The notes under the pieces were generated by a model. That model searched no databases. It saw nothing but the letters and a program-made list of their open reading frames with translations, and was not told where the DNA came from. From the NCBI RefSeq assembly GCF_037975245.1, contig NC_092576.1:32962611-33026610 (forward strand): a stretch of 64,000 bases of DNA, in the 5' to 3' direction. Positions within the stretch are counted from its first letter, which is position 1, and every line of letters starts with the position of its first letter. The position numbers and the translations under genes are program-made. This DNA is from Apostichopus japonicus. Its lineage: Eukaryota > Echinodermata > Holothuroidea > Aspidochirotida > Stichopodidae. Below are positions 6,321-61,088 of this stretch, piece after piece.

Positions 6321-6328
6321 CCTTTATG

Positions 6329-8012: not shown

Positions 8013-8042
8013 GTAACAACAAATCCCAAACAACTCTGACAG

Positions 8043-8125: not shown

Positions 8126-8431
8126 GTAATTTGACGTTGTTGTTCTCTGCCGAGCAACAAATTTGAATATTGTATCATGAAATGTGCCCCCCTATCCACC
8201 TCTCTTCTCTTATAACTGTCTTTAATACATTGTAACAACCTATGCAAAAACCTTTAAATGGACTGGATATGCTATTGAGGTGAACAGTGTATCTAGATAG
8301 CATTCCAGTAAGCTTTCCTTTTTGACTGCTGTAATACTGTTACAGTGAGGCTGTTGTTTACAAATCCCGATGATCCAGTTTTGGCAAAGAACACCTTCAA
8401 TTCTCTTCTTTTATTCTTAGTAACTTAACAG

Positions 8432-8536
8432 TTGCACTGGAGTGACATGCAATATCAGTTTAACATGTTCCAAACAGTTCAGGAATACATTGGGGTATGT
8501 CCTGTGGGTCAGTTTGTGAGGAATCTGCTGAGCTAA
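8432..8536 (+). pseudogene. Exon-like segment C in the spacer (unidentified gene)
   Basis: A pyrimidine-rich stretch (TTCTCTTCTTTTATTC) and an AG precede an open frame reading LHWSDMQYQFNMFQTV then QEYIGVCPVGQFVRNLLS and a TAA stop. No family is recognised. It lies 300 bp after segment B on the same strand and could be a 3' exon of the same captured gene. Confidence 0.3.
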
Positions 8537-8563
8537 ACAAAAGTAGTTTTCATCACTTTTCAG

Positions 8564-8720
8564 AGCCAGAGACGAAAAAGCCCTCACCGCTAACCCTTCT
8601 ATGGATGATGTTTCTGCAGGTAGGGCAAGCCAGACCAAGTGGATTGTGATCAGGGATACCAATAATACCTGCAAGAATCATAGATGCACCCAAATTGGTC
8701 AAGCTTCTCAAAATTGGTGA
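8564..8720 (+). pseudogene. Exon-like segment D in the spacer (unidentified gene)
   Basis: After CACTTTTCAG an open frame of about 51 codons (ARDEKALTANPSMDDV at its start, CTQIGQASQNW at its end) runs to a TGA stop at 8718-8720. It might be the C-terminal part of the gene represented by segments A-C, or continue segment C through a frameshift. The opposite strand also has an 85-codon frame here, which I take as a shadow. Confidence 0.3.
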
Positions 8721-8938
8721 CTGGAAGTGTTGTTGCAGACATAGACCTGGTTACTGCTTACACAGTATTGCTCATATGTGTATTTACACACTGCACCGTG
8801 CATACTGAAATCTCTGAAAATACATCTTTATGGACCTAAAATGATAATTGCATATAATTCTGTTGTGGTTTATATTGTGACGACTATGAAAAGCATCATT
8901 TTGGAAAAAAAAAAAAAATTCAACTCTCACTTAATTAA

Positions 8939-18700: not shown

Positions 18701-21700
18701 ACAGCCTTCTGAGCATTTCTAACCAGTTTTCCTCCCCAATAAACTATTGGGTCATTAAGCCTTGACCTACCAAAGCTTCCGTATTACGATTCCTGCCTTG
18801 AATCTGCTAAGTAGGTGCCAAATGCACGAAATTCAAAATCCTTCAGAATCAGACCAAAATGCCTGCAGTGTGTTTGACGTGAACGACTAAGTTCAGTGAA
18901 ATTTGACATCTGTGGGCACCTAAAGTACATGGTAATCATACTTTGGGTTATTTTTGCTAAAGTTGGAAGTACCTGGTGTTTAACTAAGGACAAAAACTCA
19001 GTTTCAATGCATGAAATACCCCTAATGTTGTTAGCTTAGGCCTAGGCCTCAGGTTCATAATGGCGCTACGTTAGTATCCTAGACCAAGTCTACACCAGCT
19101 GTAGCACAATGTTGTATGAGGTCTGTATCCTAAGTGGAGTGGCTGCTGAGGGCTAATACCTTGCACAGAGAATGTTTTGAGTCTTATTTAGCAAATAATC
19201 CACAAAGGTATGCATATTCTGCTTCTGCCAATGTGCATCAAGGGGTTTTTGAGCCTATTCACTCCTCATTAGTTTTCTGTTGTTTTGTCAATTTCAGAGA
19301 AAGTTGATGTGCTAAGTCCTCAGCATGCACAGCGATATACTTTGAATGGGTGCGGTATCAATGGACTCAACTGGTTAGATGAGGTAACAACAAATCCCAA
19401 ACAACTCTGACAGCAGAAAGAGATATCCTGATGCTTCCATGGGAGATCTACTGTAGTAACTATAGGAACCAGTGCTTGCCACCAATGGAGAATAAGGTAA
19501 TTTGACGTTGTTGTTCTCTGCCGAGCAACAAATTTGAATATTTTATCATGAAATGTGCCCCCCTATCCACCTCTCTTCTCTTATAACTGTCTTTAATACA
19601 TTGTAACAACCTATGCAAAAACCTTTAAATGGACTGGATATGCTATTGAGGTGAACAGTGTATCTAGATAGCATTCCAGTAAGCTTTCCTTTTTGACTGC
19701 TGTAATACTGTTACAGTGAGGCTGTTGTTTACAAATCCCGATGATCCAGTTTTGGCAAAGAACACCTTCAATTCTCTTCTTTTATTCTTAGTAACTTAAC
19801 AGTTGCACTGGAGTGACATGCAATATCAGTTTAACATGTTCCAAACAGTTCAGGAATACATTGGGGTATGTCCTGTGGGTCAGTTTGTGAGGAATCTGCT
19901 GAGCTAAACAAAAGTAGTTTTCATCACTTTTCAGAGCCAGAGACGAAAAAGCCCTCACCGCTAACCCTTCTATGGATGATGTTTCTGCAGGTAGGGCAAG
20001 CCAGACCAAGTGGATTGTGATCAGGGATACCAATAATACCTGCAAGAATCATAGATGCACCCAAATTGGTCAAGCTTCTCAAAATTGGTGACTGGAAGTG
20101 TTGTTGCAGACATAGACCTGGTTACTGCTTACACAGTATTGCTCATATGTGTATTTACACACTGCACCGTGCATACTGAAATCTCTGAAAATACATCTTT
20201 ATGGACCTAAAATGATAATTGCATATAATTCTGTTGTGGTTTATATTGTGACGACTATGAAAAGCATCATTTTGGAAAAAAAAAAAAAATTCAACTCTCA
20301 CTTAATTAAGGTGGCATACTCCTATTAGAGTCTATATCAATCCGCTCGATTGTTCTCCTTCAGGAAAAGTGCCAAAAAGCAGCGGGAGAACATCTTTTGT
20401 GACCTGTTATCAATCATAATCTAGTTTTTTGTGGCTTTCATGTTGAAGAGCATGAATGGAAGTACATGTGGTGAAAAAATTGGGTCAATTGAGGCAATTT
20501 TAGACCCCTTTAGGCTTCCCAGGAGCAGCGTAGGAAATTTGTTTACCACTGAGTGAAGAGGTTTGTTTACAAGTGACGAAAACTTCCGGCTCGGATAGCA
20601 AAAAATTTTCACGGTCATGGTACGGAAAATTGATGGTGCCATGAAAGGCCAACTTGTCAGCTATCCGGTGATGGGTAGCGTTAAGCTAGTGAAAACTTCT
20701 ATCTAGACTTAGAGACCACATTACTTTTGTGATTTAGTGTGTAAGTCAATGGGGCTTTTAATGGGCGTATGCTACCTTAAGCAAAAATGCCAAATTTTTC
20801 ATTTTAAGTGCTAGAAGTCCCAATTTTGGATCAAAGTAGTTGCTATGGTGTGTAAAAATGGTTTTCAAGCAAACGTCAGAAAATTTCACGCTTGGGTGAT
20901 TTTTACGCATAAATTAGTATTACAGCCTTAAAGTACCACAAAGAGCATGTGCGTGTCCATACATTAGACTAGAACAGCCTTCTGAGCATTTCTAACCAGT
21001 TTTCCTCCCCAATAAACTATTGGGTCATTAAGCCTTGACCTACCAAAGCTTCCGTATTACGATTCCTGCCTTGAATCTGCTAAGTAGGTGCCAAATGCAC
21101 GAAATTCAAAATCCTTCAGAATCAGACCAAAATGCCTGCAGTGTGTTTGACGTGAACGACTAAGTTCAGTGAAATTTGACATCTGTGGGCACCTAAAGTA
21201 CATGGTAATCATACTTTGGGTTATTTTTGCTAAAGTTGGAAGTACCTGGTGTTTAACTAAGGACAAAAACTCAGTTTCAATGCATGAAATACCCCTAATG
21301 TTGTTAGCTTAGGCCTAGGCCTCAGGTTCATAATGGCGCTACGTTAGTATCCTAGACCAAGTCTACACCAGCTGTAGCACAATGTTGTATGAGGTCTGTA
21401 TCCTAAGTGGAGTGGCTGCTGAGGGCTAATACCTTGCACAGAGAATGTTTTGAGTCTTATTTAGCAAATAATCCACAAAGGTATGCATATTCTGCTTCTG
21501 CCAATGTGCATCAAGGGGTTTTTGAGCCTATTCACTCCTCATTAGTTTTCTGTTGTTTTGTCAATTTCAGAGAAAGTTGATGTGCTAAGTCCTCAGCATG
21601 CACAGCGATATACTTTGAATGGGTGCGGTATCAATGGACTCAACTGGTTAGATGAGGTAACAACAAATCCCAAACAACTCTGACAGCAGAAAGAGATATC

Positions 21701-42429: not shown

Positions 42430-42494
42430 CATCCATTGACCAGATTCAAGGTTGAGGTCATAAATTTTGCCACTATCGTACGGTAACCAAGTGA
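42430..42494 (-). CDS. LRR-module exon, second copy of the 53-nt type
   Basis: Acceptor TTTCATTTTAG and donor ATG|GTGAGT bound 65 bases (2 + 63, ending in phase 0). It reads TWLPYDSGKIYDLNLESG then QWM and matches the exon at 51389-51441 (..YGYSLNLHSGDWE) in sequence, phase and in the bases before the acceptor (TCATTTTAG in both). It should follow a 77-nt-type exon of the second module, which I could not find between here and 48210. Confidence 0.6.
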
Positions 42495-45400
42495 CTAAAA
42501 TGAAAGAGGTAACAATGCCATGATTAACAAAATAAAACAAACAACATCATTATTTCACTCCCAGACATCCCAATGACCTACACTACAGTCACATAAGCCT
42601 TGAGAAATGTGTTGTGAAGAGATTTTACAAGAATCTGCTGAGCCCAGCTATTTTACATTATTACATTAACATGTAGAACATGTGCAATCAAGTCAGAAGG
42701 GCACGTTTTGACATCATTCTCTGTTCTGTTATCGAGTGAAAATGTAACTTTCATTTATGCTGAAAGCTTTGAAACGGGATAAACCAGTTTGTGTATCATT
42801 GTTTCTTAAAAACATTTAACCTGACATTCTTTAGAAAAGCATATCATTGGATTATAGTTAGATGATGGTCTCCCCTTCACTGGCATGTATCATGCAATAG
42901 GCCAATGTGTGATGCACAGCATATGTAAGATACTGGACATATTTCATGTTAACCCTGATCTGGAGATATTCCCAGTCTTAAATTACTCTCACTGCATAAT
43001 GTTATTGTAACTGTAGAACTTCCTGAGTCTGCATGGTTCTTAATTCCTCACCATATCTATGTGGTGGTATGTTTGTATTAAGACACCTACTGTAGTGTAT
43101 GTATAATTGTCTAGCAGTGACAGACACTTTGAATACAGAAGTCAAAACAACAACATCTCAGCCAGCTGTACCACCTCTATTGAGTCTTGTATCAAACTTA
43201 TTACTGCATAGCTATGTAGCATTTATATATTAGAAAAAATACATCTACTGAATATAAGACTACACACTTTAACCTTCCCAACCATACCATGAAATTACAT
43301 GTCCCTACAGGGGATTGTTTCCTTAGGTAGCCACCCTGACCTAGTACGAAACAGCAGAGAGAGACTGTGGATGCAAAGCCTTCACACCATTCAACCTCAT
43401 GAGCTCCACATTCAGGAAGGACATGACTAACTTTTCTGCTGTCCACGCCCCCCTTTCTCCCCTGTCACTCCTCTTCCCGTAGCTCTCTTCCACCCCCTTT
43501 TTTTTTCTCCACACATTTCTGTCTTTGTCCTCCAGTTTATTCACTACCCTGTTCCCTTAATCCTCTCTTTGGATCTCCTACCTCTCCTCTTCCCCCCGTT
43601 GGTTTCTTTCTTCTCTCCATCCCTTGTCTATTAATCCTCTTACATCTATCTCTTTGTGTTCACCCTGCTCAATAACCAGTTTGTATTCTGTGTGTGTTTT
43701 TGTCCCTTCTGTTACTGGTACTTTTCATTTAGCCTCTGAAGAAGTTCTTGCTACTGTAGGATTGAAATGTCAGGCCAACTTATTTTTACACATTCTCTTA
43801 CACAGGCTCCTTAGTGGATAAGCAGCATGCTAACAGTTTTATTTCATTTTGAATATAAAACAAGTTAGAAGGCTTGAGGTCTCCATCATATCAGAATCGT
43901 CTATAAATATACACCCATTTGCTTGACGTTTTACATATTTAATTTGTTATTTTAATGATAACTTCAGGCAACCAATGATAAGTAATACAATTTACATTAT
44001 TGAATACAATGATTGGATGCTTTATTAATAGTAATCAGTATCAGATCATAACGTTAATGTACAAACTGTTGATGTTGATCAATCGACAGAGGTTAACCTG
44101 AGCATTCGCATAAAGTACCTTTCACTTTCCTCGACTTCAATATTGAAGGAATATCCTTAGCAGCGATAGACGGAGGTAACAGACAAAATAAGAACCTGTG
44201 AAATAATAAAGCACAACCATGAGTCGGTCAATTGCTTGAACACAATTCACAAAAAAGTTATAGGATTTCAAGTTTGGACATTTTTTCAGCCAATTAATGT
44301 CAATGACCTGAACGAGTAAAGCATTGACAATAACACAGACGATAAAGATAACCTGTATATCATATATAAACAATGAGTAAAAGCTATTCATTAGAAGGAA
44401 AGTCATTCAATGATATAGCATTTGTTTTGCGAGTCCCTAAAATGACTTATCTTCTTTACAATTAACTTGAACAAAGCACCACTTCTGATCCAAATGATGA
44501 GTTTAACAACTAGGCCAAGGTAAACAAGAGCATCAATGATGCAGTATCTCAATACTGGAAGTTTTAATTTTGATTCCTAATTTCAAATCTTTGCTCTGTC
44601 TCTACAATTATCAATATCAATCATGGTACAACAAATATATAACTTGCATTTTTGCTACTTTGCCACGAATAGTCTCTGCAGGTTACACTTTATCCTGCTA
44701 GTCTTACCTTTAGCGCTCACTGCCTGTTAGTCGAAAGAACGACGTTGCAAGGTTTAGTAATGTCATAGAATATTTAAGAACTTGTTTTTCATGTGGTATC
44801 CTTCATCTTAGGTCAGTCTCTGTTGGACTTTTTGGTCATATAGTTTGATGTCAATGACAACAGCCAAATTAGAAGAGGCGAACAACTCGACCATATTCTT
44901 GATGCCTGCCTTGAGAGCTAGGCCTATTGACCTACTGTATGTTACTGTAGACTGTAGTGGTGACTACCATCAAAACTGTGTCCACTTCTAGATATCAAAA
45001 CAACCCACGTTTTTCCATCTCAATTTTTCGGACATGAAGATTTCATGGATTTATGACTTGGAAAAAATAATGTAAAAGAAGATTACAAGTTTTTATATGC
45101 AAGTGATGGGTGGCCTCCTCTTCCCCTAATAGCCACCTCAGTTCCTCTCCATTTTGTTATTTTATTTTAATTCTTTGTACATTTGATGTCAAACATTACA
45201 GGTTCAAAAGAAAGCTAAACATACTTCTTATAACCTTATACATCTTAGGCCTATATCCTTATAAATAAAACATAACCTTATACAATTTTTATAGTCTTAT
45301 CAAAGTTGTGATGCTATGGCCGGCTCCTCTTTTATACGTACCCATCAAACAAACTTACCCTGGTCCTTCCTAGGAAAAGCTGTCTGAACACCAGTACAAT

Positions 45401-48400
45401 GCTAATGTGGCTATCACTGAAAGCCTAATAGGCCTAGTGGCCTATATATTTTTAAATTGCACTAGGCCTACAGTAAGTAGCCTTCAGAAATACAAGAATG
45501 TGTATACGTAATTATACAAAATACATGAAGGGCAATCAAACAAACTTATCATGGCCCTTGCTCTGAAAAGCTACCTGAACACCATTATAGTGTTCAACCG
45601 ATTATGCATAACAGAAAATACCGATTACTGATTATTTTTTTCATAATCGTACCGATTACGATTATTTGAAAATGAGAAAATATCCCGTTTATACGAAATC
45701 GGCAATAAAGTTTGACAGAAACAATTATTGTTGTGATTTTCCCCAGTTTCCTTTTGCTTCGTTGTTATACAAGGCTCTAAGGTATCATTTTGTATGTACC
45801 AAATTACCTCTGGAGTTTCTCGGAAAGAATTTTTTTTTTTTTTAAATTTCCAAAATACGGAGATATGACATCCTACCTAGTCAGCACTGTGCTAAGCGAA
45901 TGGCCTAACCACCTCGACGTGAATGTCACCTGTTAATGGCTTGAAATGGGCTACGAATAGTTACTCAAAATATCCATCTCAAAAAGTATCTCAGACAAAC
46001 CATCTATCTGCAATCTTTACCAAAGTGTAAATTTTAATGACATATTGCCTTCATTCCGACATTATTTTGTACTTATTTTCAGTATTATACCGTTTATGAA
46101 CAAATAGAAATGTTACGAACTTGAAGTTAAACATACCTATTCGTTACCTATATAACTCCATTCAGGTTCAATTAGAATGTGTAAGCTTAGGCCAATCAAA
46201 CTGAAAAGCAAATTGTACCATCGTAACTTGTTTAAAATTACTCTAAAGTGTAATACCAGATTGATGTAAAGAAATAATAACAACTAGAAACTACTCCAAT
46301 ATAAAATATAACATTCCCTCTATAAGACATATCACTTACATTACCTTCCAAACAAATGCCGATTTCCAGCAAATTGAAAGTTGTAAACTAAGCTACGCAA
46401 TTTTTTTTTTTTTTTTGCAAACCGATGGTTAGGCTACATTTCCCATTGACTTAGTGTGGTTGTTAGGCTAACATGTGGTCGAAGATTGCAGTTTCCGTGG
46501 ATATTTTTAGTTTTTATTTGCGACACAACTAGAGCGAATAAACAGATGTCAAGTTTAGATTTCCATGCAGTTGATTTAGTGTGAAGTAAGGCTACTATGT
46601 GGTCGGAGATTTGTGAGGATTTTAGGTTATTTTCGCTGGTACTGCAGGCCGTAATTTACCACGGGAAGTTCCCGGTGATTGTGCGCGACCCTCTCGCACT
46701 GCTTCAAATTTTGATGCGGGGTGAGAAAACTGTTTGCGCGATTCGCGATGCAACTGCAATTCCTAGCTAAAGCAAACGCATGTCACAATTAATTTTACAC
46801 AGACACCTGATATAAAGAGGGCGATTTTTTTATATTTCATTTTTCTTTTTCGCACTCGTAATTGTGCTTTAGGAGGGCTTTTTAGCACTTGCGAGGGCGA
46901 ATCGCCCGTTGCCCCCGCTTATTTCCTACCCTGTCCAGCACATTCCTGAATTCGCGAAATTGCTATTGCTGCTATGCTTACTGTGCCAAGAAATATGCAG
47001 CCAATAACCACGAAGGAAGCAAAATCGGCGACCCTGGCAGCCTAATTTGATGAAAGTATACACTGTGAAAGACGTATAGAGGGTGTCTTATTTTAATATT
47101 TCGTAGTAAAAGAACAAACCTAATTCATCAGTTGATATTTTCAACTTCCATATGTTTTTGAATAATGATATTTTCACCTTCCATATGTTTTTGAATAATC
47201 GGTATGACATAACTGGTATTCCACGTAATTTTTACCGATTCCGATTATGTACCGATTATGCAATATTCGTACCGATTCCGATTCCGATTAGGTTAATCGG
47301 TTGAACACTACACCAGTACTATCCTTAAATGGATGTTACGTAGAATTCAGCAGTACAGAATGTAATTAGCATGCAATACACTAAAACCTCGCGTACCTAA
47401 CTACAGAACAGAAAATTGTTCGCGAGGGTAGCCATTTTCGTATATCTAACATGTAGCTGTTATGAGTCATAGCCAATCTGCTACAAAACAGACTTGGGGG
47501 CGGGGCTTAATCATCAAAAACGGACCTTTTTACTAAAAGTAGGGGCGGCAGCTCAGTGTTGTTTTAAGAAAGAAAAATCATTTAAACATCAAATAAAGCG
47601 AATAAAAGCCATTAAATGTCATATACATGTAGTAAAATTCTTATTAATACCTACCTGTAAACAACAAATGGAAGTTTAAAATTTTAATAAAATATATAAT
47701 ACATAGGACCCTATCTTAGACGATACGACTGTTGAAAGACAGTTCTATTCTATTCTCTTTCATAAAACATAAGTTTTGGAGCGTGTGCAAAACAGGTCTG
47801 TCAAAGTGTGTTTTCAGTCCAAATTAGCCCGATTTGGACATAAATCGGTGAAAAAGTCACAGAATGAGATACAATTCTGGAATAAAAAATAGTAACTTTT
47901 GTTGGTCTATATGATATATTCTTGCTCTGGAAATTCCAGAGAAAAAGAACTTTGTTTGAAGACGCTGAAAAATTTTTAAGAGAAGAGAAAGTCCCACTTA
48001 CTGTTACAATAGCTCTATACATGTAATGTATTGAGATAAAAATGTGTCTGTAAATACTCAATTCAGAAACAATAAAGTTCTGTCCTGTGAGAGTATCATT
48101 CCATTTGGCATCGAGTGATAAAACTTTTTAGGCATTTACAGTATGCCTATTTAAAGTGTGAAAGCATTATCTAGGTACACATTTCTAAGATACTCATTAA
48201 AATACTCACATTAGCTTTTCCAATCGCTGTGACTGTTGTGCAAACATCAATATGCCAGCAACCTCTGTCTCTGTCAGTTCTCTTCCCTCCTCATATGTAT
48301 CTATTGATAGCTTCTTTAATGACACAGGACAGGACAATTGTAGCCCTGAACAGAGGATGATGTTACCAGAATCAGCCTTGGAGAAGGATTGTAGAAGCTC

Positions 48401-51400
48401 CAGATGGAAGATGGGGATCTGAAGGAAGGTAACATACGATTCAATCAACATTGAAATGATTTAGAGCTATGTCAATTATACGATTATAACCTACTGTGGC
48501 CAGTAACTTTCCTGAAGGTATCTCATATCCATCTTAATACTAGCATAAATCCACTCCTCGCATTATTACGATTAGGCTCAAGTTTGTTTATTTAAATCTA
48601 AAATATATATATTAACGGAAAAATTTGTCTTCACCATTTTTAAAATGGGTTGATCCAACTTCTTTATCTAACATAATGAACAACGTATACAAAAGACAGT
48701 AACACTAAAGTGTATGAATGCATGAAACATAAAGTGTGCAAAATGACTGATATATGAATCATAACCAGGATGAAATATGGACTGTTAGGCTAGGAATGTA
48801 GTAAGAAAATGTCTTCATATAAATTAGTTATGTTAAACGTGATGTGTTATCGTGCCATACCACATGCCTAATGTGTTATATATATATTGTCACTACGGAG
48901 TGATATGAAATCTTTAAATCATCTTGTGTTATGTGTGCCACTATCTGGAGTACTCCTTGGAAAAATACTTCATTATTATGTGATTACCTTATGTGTACAT
49001 TTAACGTGAAAGTTAGTACACTGTGAAGACCAGTATGGTTTCTAGGATTAAAAGTTTAACAGCGATTGAGTCTGCTCAGAAAAACTAATACGTCCTTGTA
49101 GTCCTCCATGAAAAATGCAATGTAAAATACCTGACCAGGAACACATAATACTGAGCTATAATGACCCCTGAAAGCACATTGGCTTGTGCGCAACAAGAAG
49201 CCTATACTGATATGCCTATACCATGCACGAAATATCATCAATTGATGAAATCTGTAACTATTATATATTTCCGAAGCTGGAAATCTTACCGTAGACTAGT
49301 TACCATATATGCTTACCTATATCACACAATCCATACTACTGCATGCTAAACAACTTCCTTACAAAGCGCGTGTGAAATGTTATATATATAGGCTATGAAT
49401 ATGCTGTGAATGTTGGAACTTCATGTTTAGAAATAGGAGTGCCTAGAGAGAACATGCTAAAGTTTAACTCATCTAATTAAGCCCCTTAAATTTTGTAGAA
49501 AATACAAATAGATCTCAACGACACAAAAACACATCCCTAAAGTCCTAGAAATACTTGCTCACAACTTTTATGAAGCCCTGTCGTAAGTTACCATCAACAG
49601 TTCCCCAATGCAAATTTATTTATAAGTTTTATTTAAAAATGAATAAATTTTCCCTTTCCTCAACCACCATTGGCAAGTTGGCCCAACCCTGGCCAGTTCC
49701 GACCCATTGCCCTTAAAGTATGTAAATAACTCTTCACACAATGTCCATTAAAAACGCAATCTTCAATAGCTACTTTTGACGATGTATGAATGTTGCACAA
49801 GAAAAATAAATCACTGGCGCGCATGGTCAAAGACAGTGCAAAAAACTTTGCAACAAAGAAATTATTGCGGTGTGAATTTTACTTCAGCAACTCTCGCGGA
49901 GAGAACAAACATACTGTGAGATGAAAATCCATTTCAGTATCAGCAATGTTAGCTTCCCAAAAAATTCATAACTAGTCTCAACTCAACAATTTTGTGATCA
50001 AAACAATGATTGAAATATTACATGATATTGTTACATAAAACTCAACCAAAACTTTGTATCATGACTGCTTTCTGTTGAAACGTGTCGTCAACAAGGCCTA
50101 ATGTTAAGATATTTGAGTGCACACATATGATAGCCTATAGCAAAAACCTTGTTATCTCTTCCCCAGAAAGTAATGTTATATGTAATTGTTGTTATTTACA
50201 TAATTTGTGTTCATTGAGCACTGCAGACGCAAGAATGTTTCCAGACAATGGGTAAGGAACTATTAGCCATTTCAGATCATGGGAAGTTCGGAAAAGGACC
50301 ATGACTATTGCTTGCATGCAAATCTGTCTAATGTAAATGTTGAATGTACCTTGTGGTTGATTGCTGATTTATTTGCTTTAGAACAAATTCAATCATTGGA
50401 ATGATTGGAAGAAAGTTTGGTTCTTCTGAGGTTTGGTTTTTTGGAAAATAATGTTCATTCAAATGAAGTTCATTCAAAAAATGTGTTTTGTTATGTTTGC
50501 ATATAGGCCTAGTTGTGAGTGTGTATACTTATGGTTGCCATTCACCGGACACAATTTGAAGCTTTTGCGTCCATCTCTGAAACTTTCTTTGTCACAATGT
50601 TAAAAGACAATGAATCAAGTTATCAAATAATTTGACTGTGAAATGCAAAATGATACTAGAGTATCTCCATAAAACACTTAATAACATAATGGGGATGACA
50701 TATCTAGTACATAATGGGGATGATGTATTTTGATGTATCTAGTCCATCATAGGGATTTTGATATATCTAATATATAACAGCCTACTGACTTACACCATTG
50801 GTACATGCGTTCTTCAGTAGCTGCAAAGTACAATTCTGTTGTAAGTTACTATCTTTGGTCCAGATCTGTAACCTGTCTGAACACAGTGACTCAATAATAT
50901 TGATATTATCAACCTGAAGAAAAACACAAAATGAAGCAGTGTAAACTTTCCTCTCTGTTTTTACTTATTTTACTCTTCTATAATTGTAGTATCGTTAGTA
51001 TTTCTATAGATTAAAGAAAATCCATTGTTATGAAAATAAGTCCAAATACATACAGCAAACCAATCATTATTGAACTACCTGACTTACCACAATGTACAGA
51101 AAAGTTAAAAATACTCTCAAGAGAAAAGAAACATCATACAGGGTTTCCTTGAGTATCTTCAGTTGCTTAATTATCTGAATTAATTAGTAATTAAAACTTT
51201 CCAATGACCAACTCATATTTTAAATATTGCTTACAAAACCTAGATCTACACATTATATTCCCTAAGCTATGTCACAATCTCTGTCGTTGTCAATTGGTTG
51301 TCGGCATTTACACTACTTTCAAGTTGTTCTGCACTAATGGACACACACAATAACAAAAAGCCCTGGCGACAAGAAAAAAAAATCATACCTCCCAATCACC

Positions 51401-54400
51401 AGAATGGAGATTCAGGCTGTAACCGTAGTCTCGCCAGTATACTAAAATGACAAGTATGTTAAAATATGTTAAATTCAAAGACATCTAAGGATTTATGAAG
51501 AAGAGAAGTTAACTTTTTCACATAAATGAAACAGATACCTCTACACTAAAAAATGGAACACTTAAGACCTAACTTTGAATTTGGTGCTTTTCATCCAATA
51601 AATATGGCTTGACTTAAAACGACACAATTTTTTCTGTGTTTAGACTTAAAGTAATGTTCTTAAACAGCTATCATAAGCAGTAAGTTAATAACATTGCCAT
51701 TACAGTAGCTTGTACCAAAGGAATGTGTCGAGCATAGGACAAATCATGTAGGCGGTTAACATTTACTGCTCCTGAAATCCATGTAATCCTGATGACAAAG
51801 CAATTTATTTTGTCATTTTTTTTCACTTTTGCATCATTCTTGCTTTTAACAAAGGCTTACAATCTGCTTTTTGTACTTCTAATGAAAATGTTACAATGTA
51901 TTTTCTCTTATATCAACTCCTTGATGACTAGATTTAGTCATATAATCAACCAATACTGACAGAATCGATAGTTACTTTTTATTTTCCTAGATATCATCTC
52001 TGCATTGATAGACTCTAGAGAGGGCGAAAGAGGCAGCAGACATTCACTGAACCTTTGAAGTAGAAACGAAAAAAACAAACCAACATGAGAGAAAGATAGC
52101 AAAACAGTCTTGCTATGAAGCAAATTCAATATAGGAAATGCTTAGGAAGTGCTTCAAAATGATAGGAAAAGAAACACCATACTGTCGACATGATTTTGCT
52201 GTTTAATATGAGCAAATGAGCCCATAACTGCAGGAAGGTAATAATGTAACGTATGTTTAGGCTCGTCCTTAGGTCGTGCTAGGAGTCTATGGAATTGGTG
52301 TGCAGACAATCTGATAGATTGTAAAATAGACTCGTTGGTTATACAATTCCACGCAGTATGTTGTCCTATGTTCTAAGAGTGGGGGATTATCTCATACTAC
52401 CATATTACTGAATAAAACTTCCAAATTCATGAAGAAATTTTGGGGTTCAATTACACCTTGGCCTCTTTGATGATACTTATCATATCATGTAAGACATTTC
52501 CCAATAATATATGAAAAATATTCTTACCTTCCAAATTCACAACTGTCATTGTTTGTTTTTGTTATAATTAACATACAGTAGTGATGGCTAGTCATACCAA
52601 CATAAACAATTCATCATTTTCATGATCGTAACTCTAAAATTTTTGATTACAATGTATTTCTTGATGATACATCATTTCTAATACCAGTTTTGTCAGAGCT
52701 CTGTGTTTATCTCCATTACTTTGGTAAATCAGTTATTTTAATTGTAACAAGAGGGGATACTTTTAGGTGCATAGTATGATAACAATAACATGAGATTCAA
52801 CTTACGACAGCTCCTTAACAGACTGACAACGAAGCGCAAAACGGAATATGTTTGTTAACTGTATCTTTGATATTGTACGTGGTTCATTTCCCTCCTTCTC
52901 CATCTCTATGTGTATCTTTTCTAATGTCACTAAAGGACAGAGAGAGAGGTCAGATTGGAGTAAAATAGTGTATCCATCACACTCCTTGAAGGCCATGGTC
53001 AGGTGTAGGCAAGCTATGGTAATCTGTTAGAGAAATGAACAAGGTTAATGTATTGTAGTTATCCTCTAGTTAAAGAATCATGCTACATTATGAAAGGATT
53101 GAGGGTTTTATGTTATTGAATTAGACCATACAATTACATTGTGAGGTCATAATGACAATTCAACAGTAGCTTACCATGGCAACGAAATGCTACTGCATGA
53201 AACGATTTGGCCATTTACTTTTAGGGTTGTTTTTTTTGCTTTTTTTCAGTAAAAGTGACCTCACAATTAAAACTCAATTTATTTGAATAATTTCAAGGTT
53301 TGGATGTCTTTGTCATAGTGTGTTCATTTATGGCCACATGAAAGCAATAAATAAATTACACTATTGGTAGCGACAACAATTGGTAACGTCAGTAAGTGTT
53401 GTTAGCATTTGAAATTGTTTACGTTCGTAGGGTCATTGGGCCATTATTTTGGGATTCAACCTCCAAAGATATGTATTGGGAATCTGACCTCATGAATCAA
53501 GGACTTGGCGGTAAAATAAACCAAGCACTTCAATACATGAGAGGGCCCAGGTTCGAATCCCGGATGAGGCTGGAAGTTTTGCACTGTTTCTGTAGGTATA
53601 ATGACACACTGATTATAACTCTATTGTACAATAACAGTAAAAGACCGTGACCACATGACCACAAACCTGAGGAAATATATCTTGATTGCAATGAAAGAAA
53701 ATGACTTCACCTGTTTTGCACTCGCGAATTCCAAAACTTGTAAAGTTGATCTCTGAAGTAGTTGACTGTCATCGCCATTTACGTGGACCACTTTAGAAGC
53801 CAACTTTGTGATTGCATCAACAATCTTCTCATTATTATAGTCTTGTTCCAGCATACACATCATAGCAAACTTTTCATGTTGAAGGTTGTCTTGCAGATAA
53901 TTTACAATTTTACCTGAAGCAGTCTTATTAAGACCACAGGCAAATCTGTAAACATAGTGAAGTTCAAAGGGATCCAAACAATGGAGCAGTTCAGCTACAC
54001 TCTGACTCTCTGTTGTGGCAGAGGTTGAAGATTCTTGAGATAGATAATCAGCAATGTAGTGGGCAGCATACCACTCACAGAACAATTTGTGGTAGAATCT
54101 GACTTCCTTTTTATAGAGAAATTGATCACCAGTCAGAACATCTTCCTCAAAAAATATTCCAGTTTTAAGGTACTGCTCATAAAAGTCATCCCCAAGTCGA
54201 TTTCTCAGGGAAGTACTATCCCACACAATCAGTTGGTTTCTACCACTCAATGCCTCAAAAGCAACCTTGTTCAACTCATCATGTTTTGGGCCAAAATTAA
54301 CCTTTTCAATTGTTTTGTTCTTCAAATGACTATGGAAGCAAGCTATCACATTACGAAAGAAACTAGTAACGGATTTGAATGTCTTCAAGTCTTTGTTCTC

Positions 54401-57400
54401 GTGGCTCATGTGAGCAAACAAAACAAACAACAAAGGAACTTGACACAAGTCACCGAGTAGAGGGTTTCGTTGGAGTTTAAGTATTATTTCCCTGGCAGCT
54501 TGTTCGTCACCCGGTACAACTGCTTTTCTAATATATTGATCTCGGATGTCCTCGTTGAAACCTGTTAAACGTATACGATCAGTATGCGGTGCAAATTCCT
54601 TCGGCAAGTAGAAAGGCCTGGTAGTCAGAATGACGTCTATTTCCTGCAACATTTCTCTCCGAAGGATAAGAGAAATATCAGTCTCTAGATCATCTTTATC
54701 AGGGTATTCATCAAATCCATCCAAAATAACCAACGCACCTGAACAATTCTTTATGATTGATTCCACAATATCCTCACTCACATCTGAGTCTCTGGGTAAT
54801 ATAAAACGCCGTATTGCTTGGTATATTGACTTCACCCCTCTCAGTTGTCTTAGCCGCAGGTAAATAAGTATCGGTACATTACTTAAAGGGGATTTTGGAA
54901 CTCTTTGGCACCAATCATATGCAAGCTGTAGTGTCAGTGTTGATTTTCCATATCCGGCTTCGCCCTCTATAATTTGCCTACCACAATTCTCAGGTTTCTT
55001 TAGTAGCTCATGATGTGACTCTAAAAGTTTCCAAATTTTGTTTCCATGTCCTTGTTCAACTAACCGTTCAATGCCGCTATCAACATATACATTATCAACA
55101 CAATACATGGTGTCTCTGATGTAAGGCAATGGTTGTACAGAGTGATAAAGTATCTCATACTTTGCCTTTAATTCCTTGATGAATTGTTCCTCCTCTGTAA
55201 GAAACCAGAAAGTGTGATTAGTAACAAACTTATTTTATATCAGGAACAAATTCAATAATGAAAATGGTCAGAAGAAAGTTTTTTTTTTTTTAAATTGAAA
55301 TCTCATTATTGGTAGCTATTCAACCAAATTTCTAAAATGTCTTGATATTTTCAGTTAATTGTTAGACGTTAGATTTGTTTCTCAAACTAAATGGCTATTT
55401 GAACATCTGTGTTAATTACAAAGAAACAATTGATTCCAACATTTGGCAAAGATGTGTACAAACGAAATTCTGTCTTTGCCCAGACCATTCGGGAGTCACC
55501 ATTGGGTAATAATTGTTATATGAAGTGGGACTCATTCTGATGTTTTCAGAATGTTCATATCTTATTTTCAAAAACCATAAATACTGAAATACAAAAGGAC
55601 CTGTGAAATTAATTAATCACCATTTGGTAAAGTTAACTGTAACATTAATTTGATATGACAGCAATGAAGTCACTAAAATAATCAGTTTCAGATTTACAAA
55701 TTCTCATTTGAAGAGGACTAATACGTTGAATATTTATTTTAATTCATGTCTGGTATTGAACAGTATCTTAAAGCAATATAAGTTATTGTTTGCAGCATTC
55801 ACTGCACTCAGCTTGCAATAACTTGTACATCAGACTTACCGCGGGTGTCAGGTGGAATCAGTTACAGTATTACAAATTCTCATTTGTAGAGGATATGTAT
55901 GTTGAAATTTATTTTAATTTATGTACGGTATTTAACAGTATCTTAAAGCAATTGAAGGTATTGTTTGCAGCATTCACTGAAATCAGCTTGCAATAACTTG
56001 TACATCAGACTTACCAGGTGTCTGGTGAGTCTCAGTCATGGGCACCATCTAAACAAGAGAGAGGGAATGATACTTTCAAACATATTACCAAGAAAACTAT
56101 CAATTTGTAGTCACTATTTGCAAATAATTTGATTATGTAATTAACATTTTCTATTGAATAGGATACAAGTTAACATAATATGATTAGTGTAGCTAAGTAA
56201 CTGTTGGTTGTACCTTATTCTTATATAAATGTACTCTAGAGTCTACATGACAGTCAAGCCTGCCTATAGAAAAACTGTCCTAATCAAATTCACTCAAGCA
56301 TTAATAATTTGTTACTTGATAGCATAAACTTCCCCTCAATACTGTCATTAGGATTCATCCTTGAGCGCACCTATTTAGTTGACCAGTCACCTGCATGATT
56401 GCAAACACCACTGCTGTAAAGGTTAGTACTACTTTCCTGTGTGTGAAGACAAGTTTGGCTTGACCACTGAAACAATACACTGTGTGTTTAATCATGAATT
56501 TGTGCAGAGGAGAGTTCAGTATGGCTAGCATTACCAACTCAGGTAGATATTCAATCTTCCCAGTTTTTGGCTAAAAACAGGGAGACTGGTGTGTTATTTG
56601 CTGCAGGGAAGATCGTAATGTACAAGCTATTCTCAACACAAAACTGGTAGGGAAAGGATTTCATGACAGTTGCTTGTATTACTTATATCTATTACAACAT
56701 GAGACTATCCATTGGAAGGAATGTTATTTCAAATGAGTATAGTGTTACCTTTTTGTTGCAACATATATTGTGCATTGCTTGATTCAGTTGTTGCACTTAC
56801 TGCTGCAAAACTGCTCAATAAATAGAGATACTGTAGTGCAAGTTAATATAGTATACGTATATGGTAACCTACAGCATGTTTAATTTCTGAGTTTCCCACC
56901 TGTGTGGTGATCTTCAAACAAGTGACATGTTTCTAACTACTTTCTTTATGGTCTGTACCTTGGCTGATTGTACTAATAGATTACAACATCTCAGCGGGTG
57001 TTTCTTTACTAGTTTATCTATGTGTTATATTCTTTGCATGTAATAACAAGATTCAAGGCTCGTCGTTACTAAAATACAACCACCCAAGCCACATTTGTTT
57101 CCATACCACCACCAGTCCTCAGTGGGGAATATTTAAGCACCCCAGAATCTTAGACTGAATTAGCCTTACAGTATGTTTAACAGCTTGATATATTTTGTTT
57201 CCCATGATTGACTTTTTAATTTCAGATATAACAGTCTTACCTCTTCGTCTTCCACAATTTTCCTCTGACTCCTTCGGTAGATTAACACTGCAGGAATAAT
57301 TTATGTAAGGTTAAATAACCAGAATGCAAAGATGCATTGTTGTTTCGATGTTGTAACATGAGCAGTTATATTCATGAATCTGACGAAATGTATAGTGAGG

Positions 57401-60400
57401 GTGTACAACATACTTGATCTTAGTAATATAGTGAAAAAAAAAATGCACAATGACACAGGCTGGCCTTAAATGACCATTGACCTCAACAACAGGCATCTTG
57501 TTCTAAATGTGATACATACATCAAGATACTTAATATAACATCGGTCCTTGTTGAAATATTGTGTAAAACAAGGGTCTCACAATTTGACACCTGGTGAACT
57601 CAAACGACCACTGACCTCCGCCCAATGTTCTCACTGTGGTACAATTACATACCAAATATGCGATATGTCAAAGCTTCCCTTTTGATATTATGTTAGGAAG
57701 GTATGTTAGTGTAGAGAGACAGGTAAGAGGGGAGTGAAGTAAATGTTGGTGTTTGTTGACTTCATATGACCTTAGACCTCCACCAAAAAAAAACATCCAC
57801 ACACCAAATATGAGATCTGTCCAAGGTTCCCTTCTTGCAAGATCATGTTTACAAAGCTTTCACGATTTGACCTGTTGTCCCAAGTAAACCTTGACCTCCA
57901 CCAAAATCAATGGGCTTCTTTTACTCAATGTTATACACCTTCATACCAAGTATGAGATCTTCCAAGGCTTCTAATATTGAGATATCATGTTTTACAAGGT
58001 TTTCATAATTTGACCTCTGATGACCCCAAATGACCTGCGACTTCCACAAAAACAATGAGCTTCTTTTAATCAATGAGGTTCTCCGTCACATTAAATGTTA
58101 GGTCTGTTCATGCTTCCCTTCTTGAGACATGGTGTTTACAAGGTTTTCACAATTAAACCCTAGTGACCCCAAATGACCTTTGACCTCCACCAAAAACAAT
58201 AGGCTTCTTTGACTTAATGTGGTTCTTATACACATCAAATATGAGGTCTGCCCATGATTCCCATCTGAAGAAATTGTGTTTACAAGGTTTTCACAATTTG
58301 ACCCCTGGTGACCTCAAATGACCTCCACCAAAAACAATATGCTTCTTGTACTCAAAGTGGTACATCTTCACATTAAATATGAATTGGTCCGACCTACTGT
58401 ACCCTTCTTGAGGTATCATGTTAACAAGCTGGGCATCACAAACGCGCACATACACAAATACGACATCATTACTATTATCATGAAAATAAAAAAAAAAAAC
58501 AATTTTAGATAAACAAATGGTTATTATACTTTTCGGTTAGTCAATAAGGATAATGTAGATGCAATAAAAACAAATAGAATACAAGAAAATAGCTAACAAA
58601 CTTTACTATATTGCAATGGAATTCTGCTATGCATCATGGTACCTACCTATCAGACAGATGAACAAAAGCACCAGAATTAGAAGTACTGCAATTATGGTTG
58701 CTACCACAGCAACTTTCGATAAACCGGAGATCCCCATGTTGCCATCTGTAAATAGGAACCAGAAAGCCTGTGGGCTTATTGTGATTCCTTGCCAATTGAG
58801 ATTATAACACCAAGCTTTCTTCATTGTTGATTAAATTGATCAGCAAGGTTCTTTCACTGACTGTGGACCTATCTACTAAATATGTTAACGTATCATGTTT
58901 ACAAGCTACTTTTAGCAAAAATCAACTGAAGTCCTGCCCCCTAATAAATGTGCATAATATCGAGTTGAACATACATTATCATGTACCCGCTATCTACCAA
59001 CCACTTCACACAAAGTATGATTCAATTCTGAAAAGTCAGATTTAGAAACCATAAGTCGGATCAAAGAAGAAGTCGCTAGAGATGCAAACTAGCCATTCAT
59101 TTAGAAGCATAACTTCTATCAGATATCAAATTCACTGCTATAAGAAAAATAAAAGCTACTGAACATATGGACTGTATTCTTACTACACCAGCAGGCTACT
59201 GGATCTCACAATTGCAAAATCATTCACCTCTTAGAACTAGATAAAAGAGAATATTTAGATCAATTCTGTTGTAATCTCAGGTCAATAAACCCTGGCTACT
59301 TGATCTCTCTGAATCTGAACACCCTTATCGTCAAGTTCTATTTCATATCTTGAGAGATGGGTTTACTGTCTTCTGCTATGAAAAACAAGATTCCCTTTCT
59401 TAAATATAACATATCGCAAACAGTTTAGTCTTAACCGAGAACAAAGCATCGATAGCAAACAAACACCTACCATATGCCACATTAAGGTCTATTCTTGCTG
59501 CTTTTATAGGAGGCTTGAACACATCTGAATTCTGTCCTACTATAAAACACTCTAATGTGATCCCTCTTTCAGGTGCAGATAAAATTTTGAAGTTTGTTGT
59601 AAGAGAAATGTCAAAGATTCCTCCCTTTTCTGTTGATATCCTTTCCAGCTCTGTTAGAGATAAATCAGGATAGTTCCCATAAGTTCTCCACTGTAGTTCA
59701 ACTTCTGGTCGTATTCCACGAACTGAACACGTCAGGTTTCCTTCTCTTGCGACGTCAAGTACACAATACTGTGTATTGTCACATCCTTCTACAGTTATGT
59801 ACGGCGGGCTTGGATAGGCTATTCAAGAGAAAAGGAGAAAATTGTGTTTTTATTTCGCAATGACTGGTTAATTACTTAAATATAGTCAATACAAACTTAA
59901 CATGTAAAGAGGTCTGTACATTAAAGAAACATATATTAGACAGATCATATAAACATATATGTTCCATTGTCCACATATGTTGCATTACAGTCCATTCATA
60001 TTGTGAATGAGTATATTGCATAATTGTTATCACTTTATAGTTATGCCATGCGAGGAGTAGATGTTAAATGGCTTCTGTGTCTATATCTTCTAACTACCAA
60101 AGATTTATATTCTTCATCTAAGGGTAAGTTTTATTAAAGTTCAGGCCCTTGACAGGACAAGCTCGAAGTCGTACGTTTCAACAATTAGACACATCTATAC
60201 ATGAATTAACAAATGAACTCTTTTCGTTACAATAGATGGATCTAAGTGCAATTGCTTTACTACAAATCGTTCTTACTGTAAGTTACAGAATCTGTGGATA
60301 GATGGACTCGAGCGTTTGCAGGTTTCAATTAGACATTTGTTCTTTGATTCAATTATGTTACACCTTTTATGAAGTCAAGGTTATTCGGTTACTAGATGAG

Positions 60401-61088
60401 GGTTTTATAACATTTATGTATACATCAAAGTACTCACCTAAAACAACAACATCTATTGTTTGTATATGATCCATGTCATAATCGCTGGAGACACAAGTAT
60501 AAATGCCTTGGTGATACAATTCAGTCTGTGGGAACATCAGTGACCCATCAGGAGTCAATCTGAAATCCTTGTTGTATGTTTCATTAAAAACCTCTTTCCA
60601 GGTTTGCACTCTAATTAGAATGACTTCTGGGGTTTCCGATCTATCAGTGGATCTCTTCCAAACTAGAATCCTTTCGTTAAAGTCATTACAGGGTAGAGTC
60701 ATAGTAGTATGAAGCTCAACAGGATGTCTAATAGGACTGTGTGATATGTCAGCACTTCCATTCTCTAAGATAACTATGGTCTCATTCTCCTCCAAGATCC
60801 AAGTGTTCTCGTTTACGCTACATACCAATACTGACAATAACGGGGAGTCTTTATGTATTTTAACAGTCGAACGAGTAGTGAACGTTACTTCATTGTTTCT
60901 GATTTGTGTCATATTCGACTCCAAAAGTTTATCACGCTGAGAGTTTCGCTGATTCCAAATCAAAGAAATTCTAGGACGGACATTTTCGACAGAGCAACTC
61001 AACTCCAGAGGGTTTTCGTATAACATGTAGCATATTTCACTCTTATCTTGACACTCTTCAATCACAGGATATTCAAGTTGCGGCTTAA
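42430..61088 (-). CDS. Ig-transmembrane-NACHT-LRR receptor gene (partial, split)
   Basis: Eleven consecutive minus-strand exons join in phase, 61088 to 48210, giving about 1110 codons without a stop; a twelfth exon (42430-42494) belongs to the same module type but cannot be joined because a connecting exon was not found. Order: Ig1, Ig2, Ig3, transmembrane helix with basic residues after it, short cytoplasmic linker, NACHT ATPase, LRR-like modules. Known biology: NACHT domains are STAND ATPases of NLR immune sensors that oligomerise on activation, and most NLRs are soluble. Here the order predicts a type I membrane protein with an Ig ectodomain and the ATPase inside the cell, so ligand binding outside could control NACHT assembly; this is inference. 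Extracellular and transmembrane exons follow phase 1 rules, as is usual for Ig genes. The first exon starts in phase 1, so a signal-peptide exon must lie upstream. The 3' end is unknown. Confidence 0.75.
43440..43850 (+). mobile_element. CT-rich repeat carrying a hammerhead motif (retrozyme or Penelope-like fragment)
   Basis: About 190 bp of strongly pyrimidine-biased plus strand (43440-43625), then a T-rich stretch leading into the hammerhead motif at 43729-43778, and a tail TACACATTCTCTTACACAGG. Retrozymes and Penelope-like elements carry minimal type I hammerheads near their ends, which is the basis of this call. Boundaries are estimates, and no reverse transcriptase is present. It lies in the intron between 48210 and 42494, opposite to the gene. 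Confidence 0.45.
43729..43778 (+). ncRNA. Degenerate minimal type I hammerhead ribozyme motif
   Basis: In order: stem I strand TTAGCCT, core CTGAAGA (matches CUGANGA), stem II AGTTCT/AGGATT with a 9-base loop and two wobble pairs, core GAAA, TGTC containing the UH cleavage site, then stem I partner AGGCCAA (GCCT/AGGC perfect, plus TT/AA beyond one mismatch). Stem III is almost absent, as in dimer-acting hammerheads where a palindromic ACGT serves; here it is ATGT, which looks like CpG decay of ACGT. This copy is therefore probably weak or inactive as RNA. Confidence 0.55.
45588..47310. mobile_element. Non-autonomous hAT-like element in an intron
   Basis: Perfect 17-bp terminal inverted repeats: TAGTGTTCAACCGATTA on the left and its exact complement on the right. 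The flanking octamers CACCATTA (45580-45587) and CACCAGTA (47311-47318) agree at 7 of 8 positions. Subterminal repeats of ACCGATT occur at both ends. No transposase frame. It contains a 33-bp tandem duplication (around TTCCATATGTTTTTGAATAA near 47135-47200). Its termini differ from the CAGTGGCG-type elements at 2411-6320, so it is a separate family. It sits in the intron between the exons 48210-48418 and 42430-42494. Confidence 0.8.
48210..48418 (-). CDS. LRR-module exon, second copy of the 218-nt type
   Basis: Acceptor CTTCCTTCAG and donor AT|GTGAGT bound 209 bases, starting phase 0 and ending phase 2. It starts IPIFHLELLQSFSK and ends AQQSQRLEKL. It aligns with the exon at 52806-53023 (same length class, same phases, CPLVTLEKI against CPVSLKKL), so the module was duplicated. 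Amphipathic leucine pattern fits an LRR-like solenoid, not a textbook LRR. It follows the 120-nt exon at 50794-50913 in phase. Confidence 0.7.
50794..50913 (-). CDS. LRR-module exon (120 nt)
   Basis: Acceptor TTTTTCTTCAG and donor GGT|GTAAGT bound exactly 40 codons, phase 0 at both ends, starting VDNINIIESLCSDRLQIW. It completes the first module (218, 77, 53 and 120 nt). The equivalent exon of the second module was not found below 42430. Confidence 0.7.
51389..51441 (-). CDS. LRR-module exon (53 nt)
   Basis: Acceptor TGTCATTTTAG and donor GAG|GTATGA. 53 bases, entering in phase 1 and leaving in phase 0, reading YWRDYGYSLNLHSGDWE after the split first codon. The homologue at 42430-42494 supports that it is a real exon. 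Confidence 0.65.
51976..52052 (-). CDS. LRR-module exon (77 nt)
   Basis: Acceptor CTACTTCAAAG and donor A|GTAACT. 77 bases (1 + 75 + 1) link the preceding exon (phase 2) with the next (phase 1). Across the junction the sequence reads CQSVKELSFSECLLPL then SPSLESINAEM, an L..L.F..C.L pattern like one LRR turn. The frame continues past the donor to a stop near 51940. Phase agreement on both sides is the main evidence; the acceptor is moderate. Confidence 0.6.
52806..53023 (-). CDS. LRR-module exon (218 nt)
   Basis: Acceptor ATTTCTCTAACAG and donor TC|GTAAGT bound 218 bases, phase 0 to phase 2, beginning ITIACLHLTMAFKE and ending ALRCQSVKELS. It directly follows the NACHT exon, which ends in phase 0. 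The paralogous exon at 48210-48418 confirms the boundaries. Confidence 0.7.
53550..53560 (+). other. Pol III B-box-like sequence (possible tRNA-derived SINE remnant)
   Basis: GGTTCGAATCC is a perfect B-box consensus, and the flanking bases make a T-arm-like stem with 4 of 5 pairs. An A-box candidate about 45 bp upstream (TTGGCGGTAAAAT) is poor and no complete cloverleaf can be drawn. It lies in the intron after the NACHT exon. Confidence 0.3.
53711..55194 (-). CDS. NACHT ATPase exon
   Basis: A single 1484-bp exon (acceptor GGTTTCTTACAG, donor CAG|GTGAAG), about 494 codons, phase 1 in and phase 0 out. Counting from the LPYIRD segment: Walker A GEAGYGKST at about 56-64, Walker B LVILDGFDEY at 133-142 with the double acidic DE, an arginine-finger-like TTRPF at 169-173, and HKLFCEWYAAHYIADYL at about 347-363, the counterpart of the FxxFxAAxY motif in the helical region of NLRs. 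The pre-NACHT segment ends VDNVYVDSGIERL, the linker style of invertebrate NLRs. All ATP-binding residues that I can check are intact, so an active STAND ATPase is expected. It is placed on the cytoplasmic side of the membrane helix. The frame runs 30 codons past the donor into the intron, which would give a truncated product without LRRs if unspliced. Confidence 0.9.
55695..56046. repeat. 176-bp tandem duplication including a juxtamembrane exon
   Basis: 55695-55870 and 55871-56046 are diverged tandem copies (both contain GCTTGCAATAACTTGTACAT then CAGACTTACC). The right copy holds the 34-nt exon 56015-56048. In the left copy the donor (GTAAGTC) survives, but the exon body is changed and no acceptor remains at the matching place. 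Confidence 0.85.
56015..56048 (-). CDS. 34-nt cytoplasmic linker exon
   Basis: Acceptor CTCTCTTGTTTAG and donor G|GTAAGT. It reads MVPMTETHQTP, phase 0 in and phase 1 out, matching the neighbouring exons. It joins the basic juxtamembrane exon to the NACHT exon. Because 34 is not a multiple of three, skipping it would shift the frame. Confidence 0.65.
56255..56620. repeat. Dispersed repeat, copy 2
   Basis: About 365 bp similar to 40721-41067. Located in the intron between the exons 57241-57287 and 56015-56048. Confidence 0.85.
57241..57287 (-). CDS. 47-nt basic juxtamembrane exon
   Basis: Acceptor ATTATTCCTGCAG and donor GAG|GTAAGA. It reads LIYRRSQRKIVEDEE after the split codon. The RRSQRK cluster directly after the hydrophobic stretch is a typical stop-transfer signal and places the following NACHT region in the cytoplasm. 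Confidence 0.7.
57460..58440. repeat. Imperfect tandem repeat, about 140-bp period, seven copies
   Basis: The string GACCTCCACCAAAAACAAT or close variants recurs near 57478, 57615, 57772, 57893, 58031, 58181 and 58320. TTTACAAGGTTTTCACAATT recurs between several of these. Copies are diverged (spacings roughly 120-155 bp). Located in the intron after the transmembrane exon. Confidence 0.85.
58647..58745 (-). CDS. Transmembrane exon
   Basis: Acceptor CCTATTTACAG and donor ATAG|GTAGGT, 99 bases, phase 1 at both ends. After a short linker (DGNMGISGLSK) comes an uninterrupted hydrophobic run of about 22 residues, VAVVATIIAVLLILVLLFIC. With the Ig domains before it and basic residues after it, this predicts a type I single-pass membrane protein. 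Confidence 0.8.
59471..59818 (-). CDS. Ig-like domain 3 exon
   Basis: Acceptor CTATTCAAG-side AATAG and donor CATATG|GTAGGT bound 348 bases, phase 1 at both ends as is classical for Ig exons. It begins YPSPPYITVEGCD and contains the core cysteine and tryptophan (GNLTCSVRGIRPEVELQW) and the second cysteine (ITLECFIVG). It resembles the first Ig domain of the upstream exon (CSVENVRPRISLIW), so the two are paralogous. No in-frame ATG lies near the start, so simple ORF searches miss it. Confidence 0.75.
60438..61088 (-). CDS. Exon encoding Ig-like domains 1 and 2
   Basis: Acceptor CCTTACATTCAACAG and donor TTAG|GTGAGT bound 651 bases, phase 1 at both ends. Domain 1 has the cysteine-tryptophan core ELSCSVENVRPRISLIW and a second cysteine in SVLVCSVNEN. 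An additional cysteine pair (EECQDKSEIC) lies before the core and recurs in domain 3 (EGCDNTQYC). Domain 2 is V-like: TLPCNDF, ILVWKRS, and HQGIYTCVS, the usual D.G.Y.C motif with H for D. NMT, NET and similar sites suggest N-glycosylation. The frame extends to an ATG in the preceding intron, which I do not take as the start because the acceptor is good and the phase agrees. Confidence 0.8.

Follow-up and report, generated by a model that had tools for sequence, protein, structure and literature searches.

NLR proteins are mostly treated as cytosolic sensors, and the vertebrate NLRC4, NOD2 and NLRP3 proteins are soluble and carry CARD or PYD effector domains rather than a signal peptide, immunoglobulin (Ig) domains and a transmembrane (TM) helix. 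In the sea cucumber Apostichopus japonicus, AjNLRC4 (MN607598) was described in 2021 as a membrane receptor with an extracellular Ig part and an intracellular NACHT, which, according to that description, binds microbes and polysaccharides, dimerises, gets internalised and drives phagocytosis through actin (PMC8699970). A second protein of the same species, AjNLR-new (PIK48001.1), also has Ig, TM and NACHT in one protein but differs, by its published description, in having two TM helices and a reversed topology with the NACHT outside (PMC13133943). An Ig V-set domain likewise occurs among the holothuroid NLRs described from Chiridota heheva (PMC8913654, where the word "transmembrane" does not appear in the main text), and an NLR family, there called CARD-containing, was expanded in a sea cucumber genome according to an earlier report cited in PMC13228809. 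The Ig-TM-NACHT architecture is already known, and it is possibly an old holothuroid trait.

The gene studied here lies on the minus strand in a window of 64,000 nucleotides from A. japonicus (assembly GCF_037975245.1, contig NC_092576.1, positions 32,962,611 to 33,026,610), and by its identity and Ig-TM-NACHT architecture, as read from sequence, it is very probably an apparently intact paralog of AjNLRC4. The original prediction for this window had joined minus-strand exons from 61088 to 48210 in phase and without a stop, and had regarded the resulting Ig-TM-NACHT chain as a different signalling logic. The latter is not supported as a discovery, because the architecture and membrane location of AjNLRC4 were already published in the same species (PMC8699970; follow-ups PMC11932488 and PMC13133943). 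The join itself was reproduced as an open and phase-matched model: the six exons from Ig1-2 to NACHT in Table 1 have AG/GT borders and read through 887 codons with 0 stops, in comparison to 62 and 91 stops in the other two frames, the coordinates of the junctions 58647/57287, 57241/56048 and 56015/55194 are exact, and the model extends to 44119. Three Ig domains are present as had been proposed; position 61088 is not the start of the gene, since two 5' exons, one coding for a signal peptide (MGKFTVHLTFFLVVQVVC) and one for a fourth, V-type Ig domain whose exon is homologous to exon 1 of the AjNLRC4 model, were located 1.5 to 2.1 kb past the window end through the DNA upstream of two paralogs. 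The complete 14-exon model, from the signal peptide to module exon b2, is open and phase-matched over 1265 codons with 0 stops, and its predicted ectodomain consists of four Ig domains.

The domain assignments were based on profile, motif and structure comparisons. Pfam NACHT was matched at 55234-53621 with E=5.2e-19, and the Ig1-2 exon at 61 kb matched V-set (E=6.8e-6) and ig (E=1.7e-5); the Ig3 exon at 59.8 kb gave a sub-threshold match to ig (E=0.0023), and the Ig-V exon fell just short of the V-set cut-off (25.3 bits vs 26). There is a single TM-grade helix with a mean hydropathy of 3.86, followed directly by RRSQRK, and the runner-up stretch (1.69) is the signal peptide, which was assigned by eye and hydropathy. 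Hydropathy and motifs thus bear out the helix, the basic motif and the intact Walker A (GEAGYGKS) and Walker B (LVILDGFDE) of the original prediction, and both Walker motifs are retained in 10 of 10 aligned NACHT exons. The NACHT core is shared with the vertebrate proteins by sequence, where NLRC4 is nearest (E=5.3e-20), and by predicted fold, which matches NOD2, NLRP3 and NLRC4 (best E=5.2e-15, query TM-score 0.34 to 0.51 among the matches listed) in a model whose mean pLDDT of 73 makes it fit for fold assignment only; in contrast to those proteins, the window gene has a signal peptide, Ig domains and a TM helix instead of CARD or PYD. The Ig1-2 structure model is all beta with two domains (pLDDT 81), and its matches are Ig pairs, among them those of UNC-5 and JAML (best E=1.9e-9, query TM-score 0.33). 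In the three Ig exons only Ig families were matched at E<=1, with no CARD, PYD or DED, the unscanned signal-peptide, TM and linker exons being too short to hold one.

The AjNLRC4 locus (L001) sits on the same chromosome as the window gene, at C16:4497281-4502724. The published AjNLRC4 primer EX-F has one genome match, with 1 mismatch (2 allowed), and at this locus EX-R has 1 mismatch and qF and qR have 0. Seven exons spliced there give a model with 0 stops, in which, on a numbering anchored solely on the published LRTD at 177-180, the recombinant ectodomain begins at 31 (published Ig-like domain 31-132), the TM lies at 479-502 (published 483-503), the Walker A segment starts at 599 (published NACHT 600-757), and the published "second TM" (776-795) falls on a moderately hydrophobic stretch at 785-794 inside the NACHT exon. 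The published siRNA has 2 mismatches at the spliced Ig3/TM junction in comparison to 4 at the best site of the genomic locus. Since the published protein coordinates fit the spliced model, the published protein joins TM and NACHT in the way predicted for the window copy, and the reproduction of its TM and NACHT positions supports the predicted junctions. Both genes have the order Ig-V, Ig1-2, Ig3, TM, 47-nt exon, micro-exon and NACHT with equal phases, followed in AjNLRC4 by a candidate C-terminal module exon, and in a search of 13 sequences the window exons matched the AjNLRC4 locus with E=6e-144 for NACHT, 5e-15 for Ig1-2 and 1e-16 for Ig3. They differ in that identity is 46% in the NACHT exon and 23% in the Ig1-2 exon, and in that AjNLRC4 was reported, by its published description, without LRR and with a second TM (PMC8699970).

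Relatives of the gene are numerous in the A. japonicus genome. The genome searches scored 106 of 489, 146 of 259 and 150 of 339 candidates, and all family counts are therefore lower bounds: at least 141 matches for the Ig exon, at least 106 for NACHT (Pfam) and at least 24 for the TM exon. For 40 of the 106 NACHT matches listed, an Ig match lies within 25 kb upstream on the same strand, and for 23 of the 24 TM matches listed a NACHT lies within 25 kb downstream on the same strand. When a further 150 matches were merged, there were at least 208 NACHT loci and at least 139 Ig loci; the nearest NACHT within 25 kb of these 139 Ig loci was 3' on the same strand for 50 and on the opposite strand for 1, the Ig was 3' of the NACHT in 0, and the distance over the 51 pairs had a median of 3.4 kb (range 2.1 to 20.7). 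Random placement, which was uniform along contigs and ignores clustering, gave a mean of 2.4 and a maximum of 8 pairs in 1000 draws in comparison to the 50 observed, most of which are known from match positions rather than base-by-base reading. To judge from these matches, the window gene is one of some fifty probable Ig-NACHT relatives. On C7, among the matches listed, 17 of 18 NACHT matches are accompanied by the TM exon and 1 of 18 by the Ig exon; this set spans 3.1 to 12.3 Mb, with the TM exon mostly about 3.6 kb before the NACHT and without an Ig1-2 match. Loci L001 to L012 were hand-picked, and hence non-random, from Ig, TM or NACHT matches. Under strict rules, a phase-matched TM exon between Ig3 and NACHT was found on the sense strand in 8 and on the antisense strand in 0 of 12 chosen sequences (11 loci and the window; L011, which has no Ig, was excluded), the TM matches of L002, L003, L008, L012 and the window being known before this test. 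No count of Ig-TM-NACHT genes in A. japonicus was found by titles and abstract openings among the papers listed in the literature searches, most subscription journals lying outside them.

Two close paralogs on C16, P2 (31.25 Mb) and P3 (32.29 Mb), each keep all 14 exons with 0 stops, with GT at 14 of 14 donors, AG at 13 of 13 acceptors and observed gaps of 3 or 6 nt. The 47-nt exon retains its length, borders and frame in L002, L003, L012 and L008, and the linker exon, with 34, 28, 28 and 34 nt in these loci, respectively, and 31 nt in AjNLRC4, is in frame throughout; the TM donor is unaligned in L012 and L008. The ratio of nonsynonymous to synonymous change (pN/pS), pooled over three close comparisons that are not independent of each other, was 0.30 for NACHT, 0.41 for Ig1-2, 0.47 for Ig3, 0.45 for Ig-V and 0.23 for the signal peptide, NACHT being the lowest among the well-sampled exons. 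The P12 comparison is one 10-kb piece with 7 of 14 exons placed, an unaligned TM donor and a partial placement of b1 with a stop. Conservation in the paralogs and the agreement between the AjNLRC4 locus and protein make a single membrane receptor, of predicted type I topology with an Ig ectodomain and a cytosolic NACHT, well supported.

The C-terminal module exons, which had been called LRR-like, are open in two paralogs, where their borders are retained, and they make up a duplicated unit (33% identity between a1 and a2). Their resemblance to LRR was by eye only: Pfam gave nothing for LRR at E<=1, and in the PDB a single unrelated chain was matched (E=0.89). A profile of the a-type exon, made from four rows (the window twice, L002 and L004), found sense-strand relatives 3' of NACHT in 8 of 12 sequences (the window, L002, L003, L004, L005, L007, L009 and AjNLRC4), those in the window, L002 and L004 by construction, and 0 antisense frames above the inclusion threshold. 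Outside the close group, the matches were E=1.3e-12 for L005, 2.3e-6 for L007, 1.2e-8 for L009 and 3e-4 for AjNLRC4, and no a-type exon was found within the 1.7 to 4.7 kb examined 3' of NACHT in L006, L008, L010 and L012.

Several results weigh against reading the window gene as one intact receptor with a switching NACHT. Its whole exon model was read from DNA alone, and for 88 of the 139 Ig loci the matches listed include no NACHT within 25 kb. Under relaxed rules, a TM-like exon was found in 11 of 12 sequences in sense and also in 4 of 12 in antisense. A search with the joined TM-linkers-NACHT start for an intron-less copy across the exon joins gave none that was open among the best 150 of 339 candidates, the rows that extend into the TM part carrying stops. 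The TM and linker exons have too few changes for constraint to show (TM pN/pS 1.42, with 5.0 synonymous and 18.0 nonsynonymous changes; linker 1 0.68; linker 2 with 0 synonymous changes), the tail exons range from 0.50 to 1.97 with few changes (g1 was not computable), and the published NACHT-actin result is uncertain, as detailed below. The predicted nature of the joins at the window locus and the Ig loci lacking a nearby NACHT would both fit two adjacent genes, a short-tailed Ig membrane protein and a cytosolic NACHT gene, misread as one, as would a copy with a TM at C16:32545462 whose next NACHT match is 219 kb off. However, the TM and NACHT exons have conserved donors and acceptors, the pair of micro-exons that separates them stays in phase in L002, L003, L012, L008 and AjNLRC4, and AjNLRC4 as published carries both TM and NACHT on a single chain, spaced as predicted, which makes the two-gene explanation highly improbable. 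The little constraint seen in the tail exons would also fit a real family architecture of which the window copy is a silent or decaying member, as it is one of many copies and the C7 relative L008 has a frameshifted Ig3 with 5 stops (its TM, linkers and NACHT are open); such decay is rather improbable in the face of 0 stops in 1265 codons, exon borders that follow the consensus and a pN/pS far below 1 in the Ig and NACHT exons.

On the whole, the explanation we consider probable is an AjNLRC4 paralog acting as a clustering surface receptor with NACHT switching. As read from the sequence, a signal peptide and four Ig domains come first, a single TM helix is next, and a short basic linker beside the membrane leads to the NLRC4-like NACHT ATPase, after which there are two C-terminal module copies. 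In the window copy, topology, ligand, assembly and output would then be such that variable Ig ectodomains bind a surface ligand (microbes and polysaccharides in the published case of AjNLRC4), binding clusters the receptor and gathers the NACHT parts at the inner membrane face, and the assembly recruits effectors of phagocytosis and/or caspase-1-dependent lytic death. Whether the gathered NACHT parts would exchange nucleotide and oligomerise stands slightly short of an even chance, and that ectodomain binding would drive this oligomerisation is what we infer, as did the original prediction. A surface receptor whose NACHT does not oligomerise but links to actin or other cargo as an adaptor would agree with the published accounts, in which the ectodomain forms oligomers, dimers appear after infection and the NACHT binds beta-actin (PMC8699970), and with caspase-1 being recruited through the Ig domains, not the NACHT, with MLKL cleavage (PMC11932488). 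We regard it as unlikely, since Walker A and B kept in the 10 aligned NACHT exons, together with the lowest pN/pS, suggest that nucleotide switching matters, and the actin result is itself uncertain because of the primers printed for the construct.

The AjNLRC4-IN primers printed in PMC8699970 have no match in the genomic AjNLRC4 locus at <=3 mismatches, a search that a splice-junction primer would escape. IN-F has one genome match, at C14:1474164 with 0 mismatches, and IN-R, searched at the loci, lies 3 kb downstream, facing it, with 0 mismatches (positions 1164 and 4150 of L013, C14:1473001-1480000). The frame under IN-R matches the UBA domain of sequestosome-1/p62 (E=2.7e-13); for the frame at IN-F neither Pfam nor the PDB gave a match, and we take it to belong to the same p62/SQSTM1-like gene from its p62-like letters. 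The primer pair given for the NACHT construct of AjNLRC4 fits a p62/SQSTM1-like locus instead of AjNLRC4, and neither "p62" nor "SQSTM1" appears in the main text of PMC8699970. The discrepancy may be an error of the table only.

Table 1. Exons of the AjNLRC4 paralog in transcript order (window coordinates)
Feature	Position	Strand	Basis
Signal-peptide exon	66114-66060 (coordinates carried past window end)	-	paralog comparison; begins at own ATG
Ig-V exon	65814-65491 (coordinates carried past window end)	-	paralog comparison; homologous AjNLRC4 first exon
Ig1 + Ig2 exon (two Ig domains), phase 1-1	60438..61088	-	Pfam, in-frame join, paralogs, fold
Ig3 exon (third ig-like domain), phase 1-1	59471..59818	-	sub-threshold ig match, in-frame join, paralogs
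Transmembrane exon	58647..58745	-	in-frame join, paralog copies, hydropathy
47-nt juxtamembrane exon, with junction codons VLIYRRSQRKIVEDEE	57241..57287	-	kept in paralogs
34-nt cytosolic linker exon	56015..56048	-	in-frame join, paralogs, AjNLRC4 model
NACHT exon (NTPase core and following helical domains), Walker A and B intact	53711..55194	-	Pfam, alignment, fold
C-terminal module exon a1 (first copy)	52806..53023	-	open in paralogs; no Pfam or PDB match
C-terminal module exon b1	51976..52052	-	open in paralogs
C-terminal module exon g1	51389..51441	-	open in paralogs
C-terminal exon i2; resembles NACHT exon end (by eye and weak translated match)	50794..50913	-	
C-terminal module exon a2 (second copy, 33% identical to a1)	48210..48418	-	open in paralogs
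C-terminal module exon b2 (last exon placed)	44119..44195	-	open in paralogs

Some further observations were made around these loci. A 175-bp duplication at 55680-56015 of the window (1.9 copies, 88% matches) runs on into the 34-nt linker exon, including its donor. The Ig exon has close copies at C9:13401900-13402664 (85%) and C16:32543132-32545569 (88%) that lack a NACHT match within 25 kb, and the second has the TM exon. Upstream of the NACHT exon of L021 (C16:2302701-2310700), the frame at 6156-6578 in the oriented sequence contains MGNRSSKKKSSKRGLKTD, which by eye resembles a myristoylation signal combined with a basic anchor for the membrane and may be another means by which a NACHT is tethered. 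L011 (C12:31612001-31622000), in a large C12 cluster, has two DED-like frames (by eye) at 3010-4011 ahead of its NACHT exon and may be an ordinary cytosolic NLR. Elsewhere in the window, 6647-36510 holds a tandem array in which a unit of about 2273 bp occurs fourteen times, the copies being almost identical (99-100% over reference stretches of 300 nt); Rfam gave no match for 3500-14000, and the one copy checked (18028-20301) has no frame of at least 90 aa between stops.

What is new here is the full anatomy of the gene, the family size, which is not claimed to be unpublished, the C-terminal modules missed by Pfam, and the warning on the primers; the gene models, which include the overlooked 5' exons and the tail modules, are of direct relevance to the published AjNLRC4 work, as is the primer discrepancy. 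On a more tentative note, the at least 50 Ig-NACHT pairs and the 17 C7 loci could form a clustered repertoire in which diversified Ig ectodomains would directly switch a membrane-tethered NLRC4-like ATPase, a repertoire that would be antigen-receptor-like and wired to an inflammasome-type switch. In general, the analysis suggests that an animal kept in farming has a family of some fifty NLRs that are likely to sit at the cell surface, and with such a family one could test whether extracellular events can switch a NACHT.

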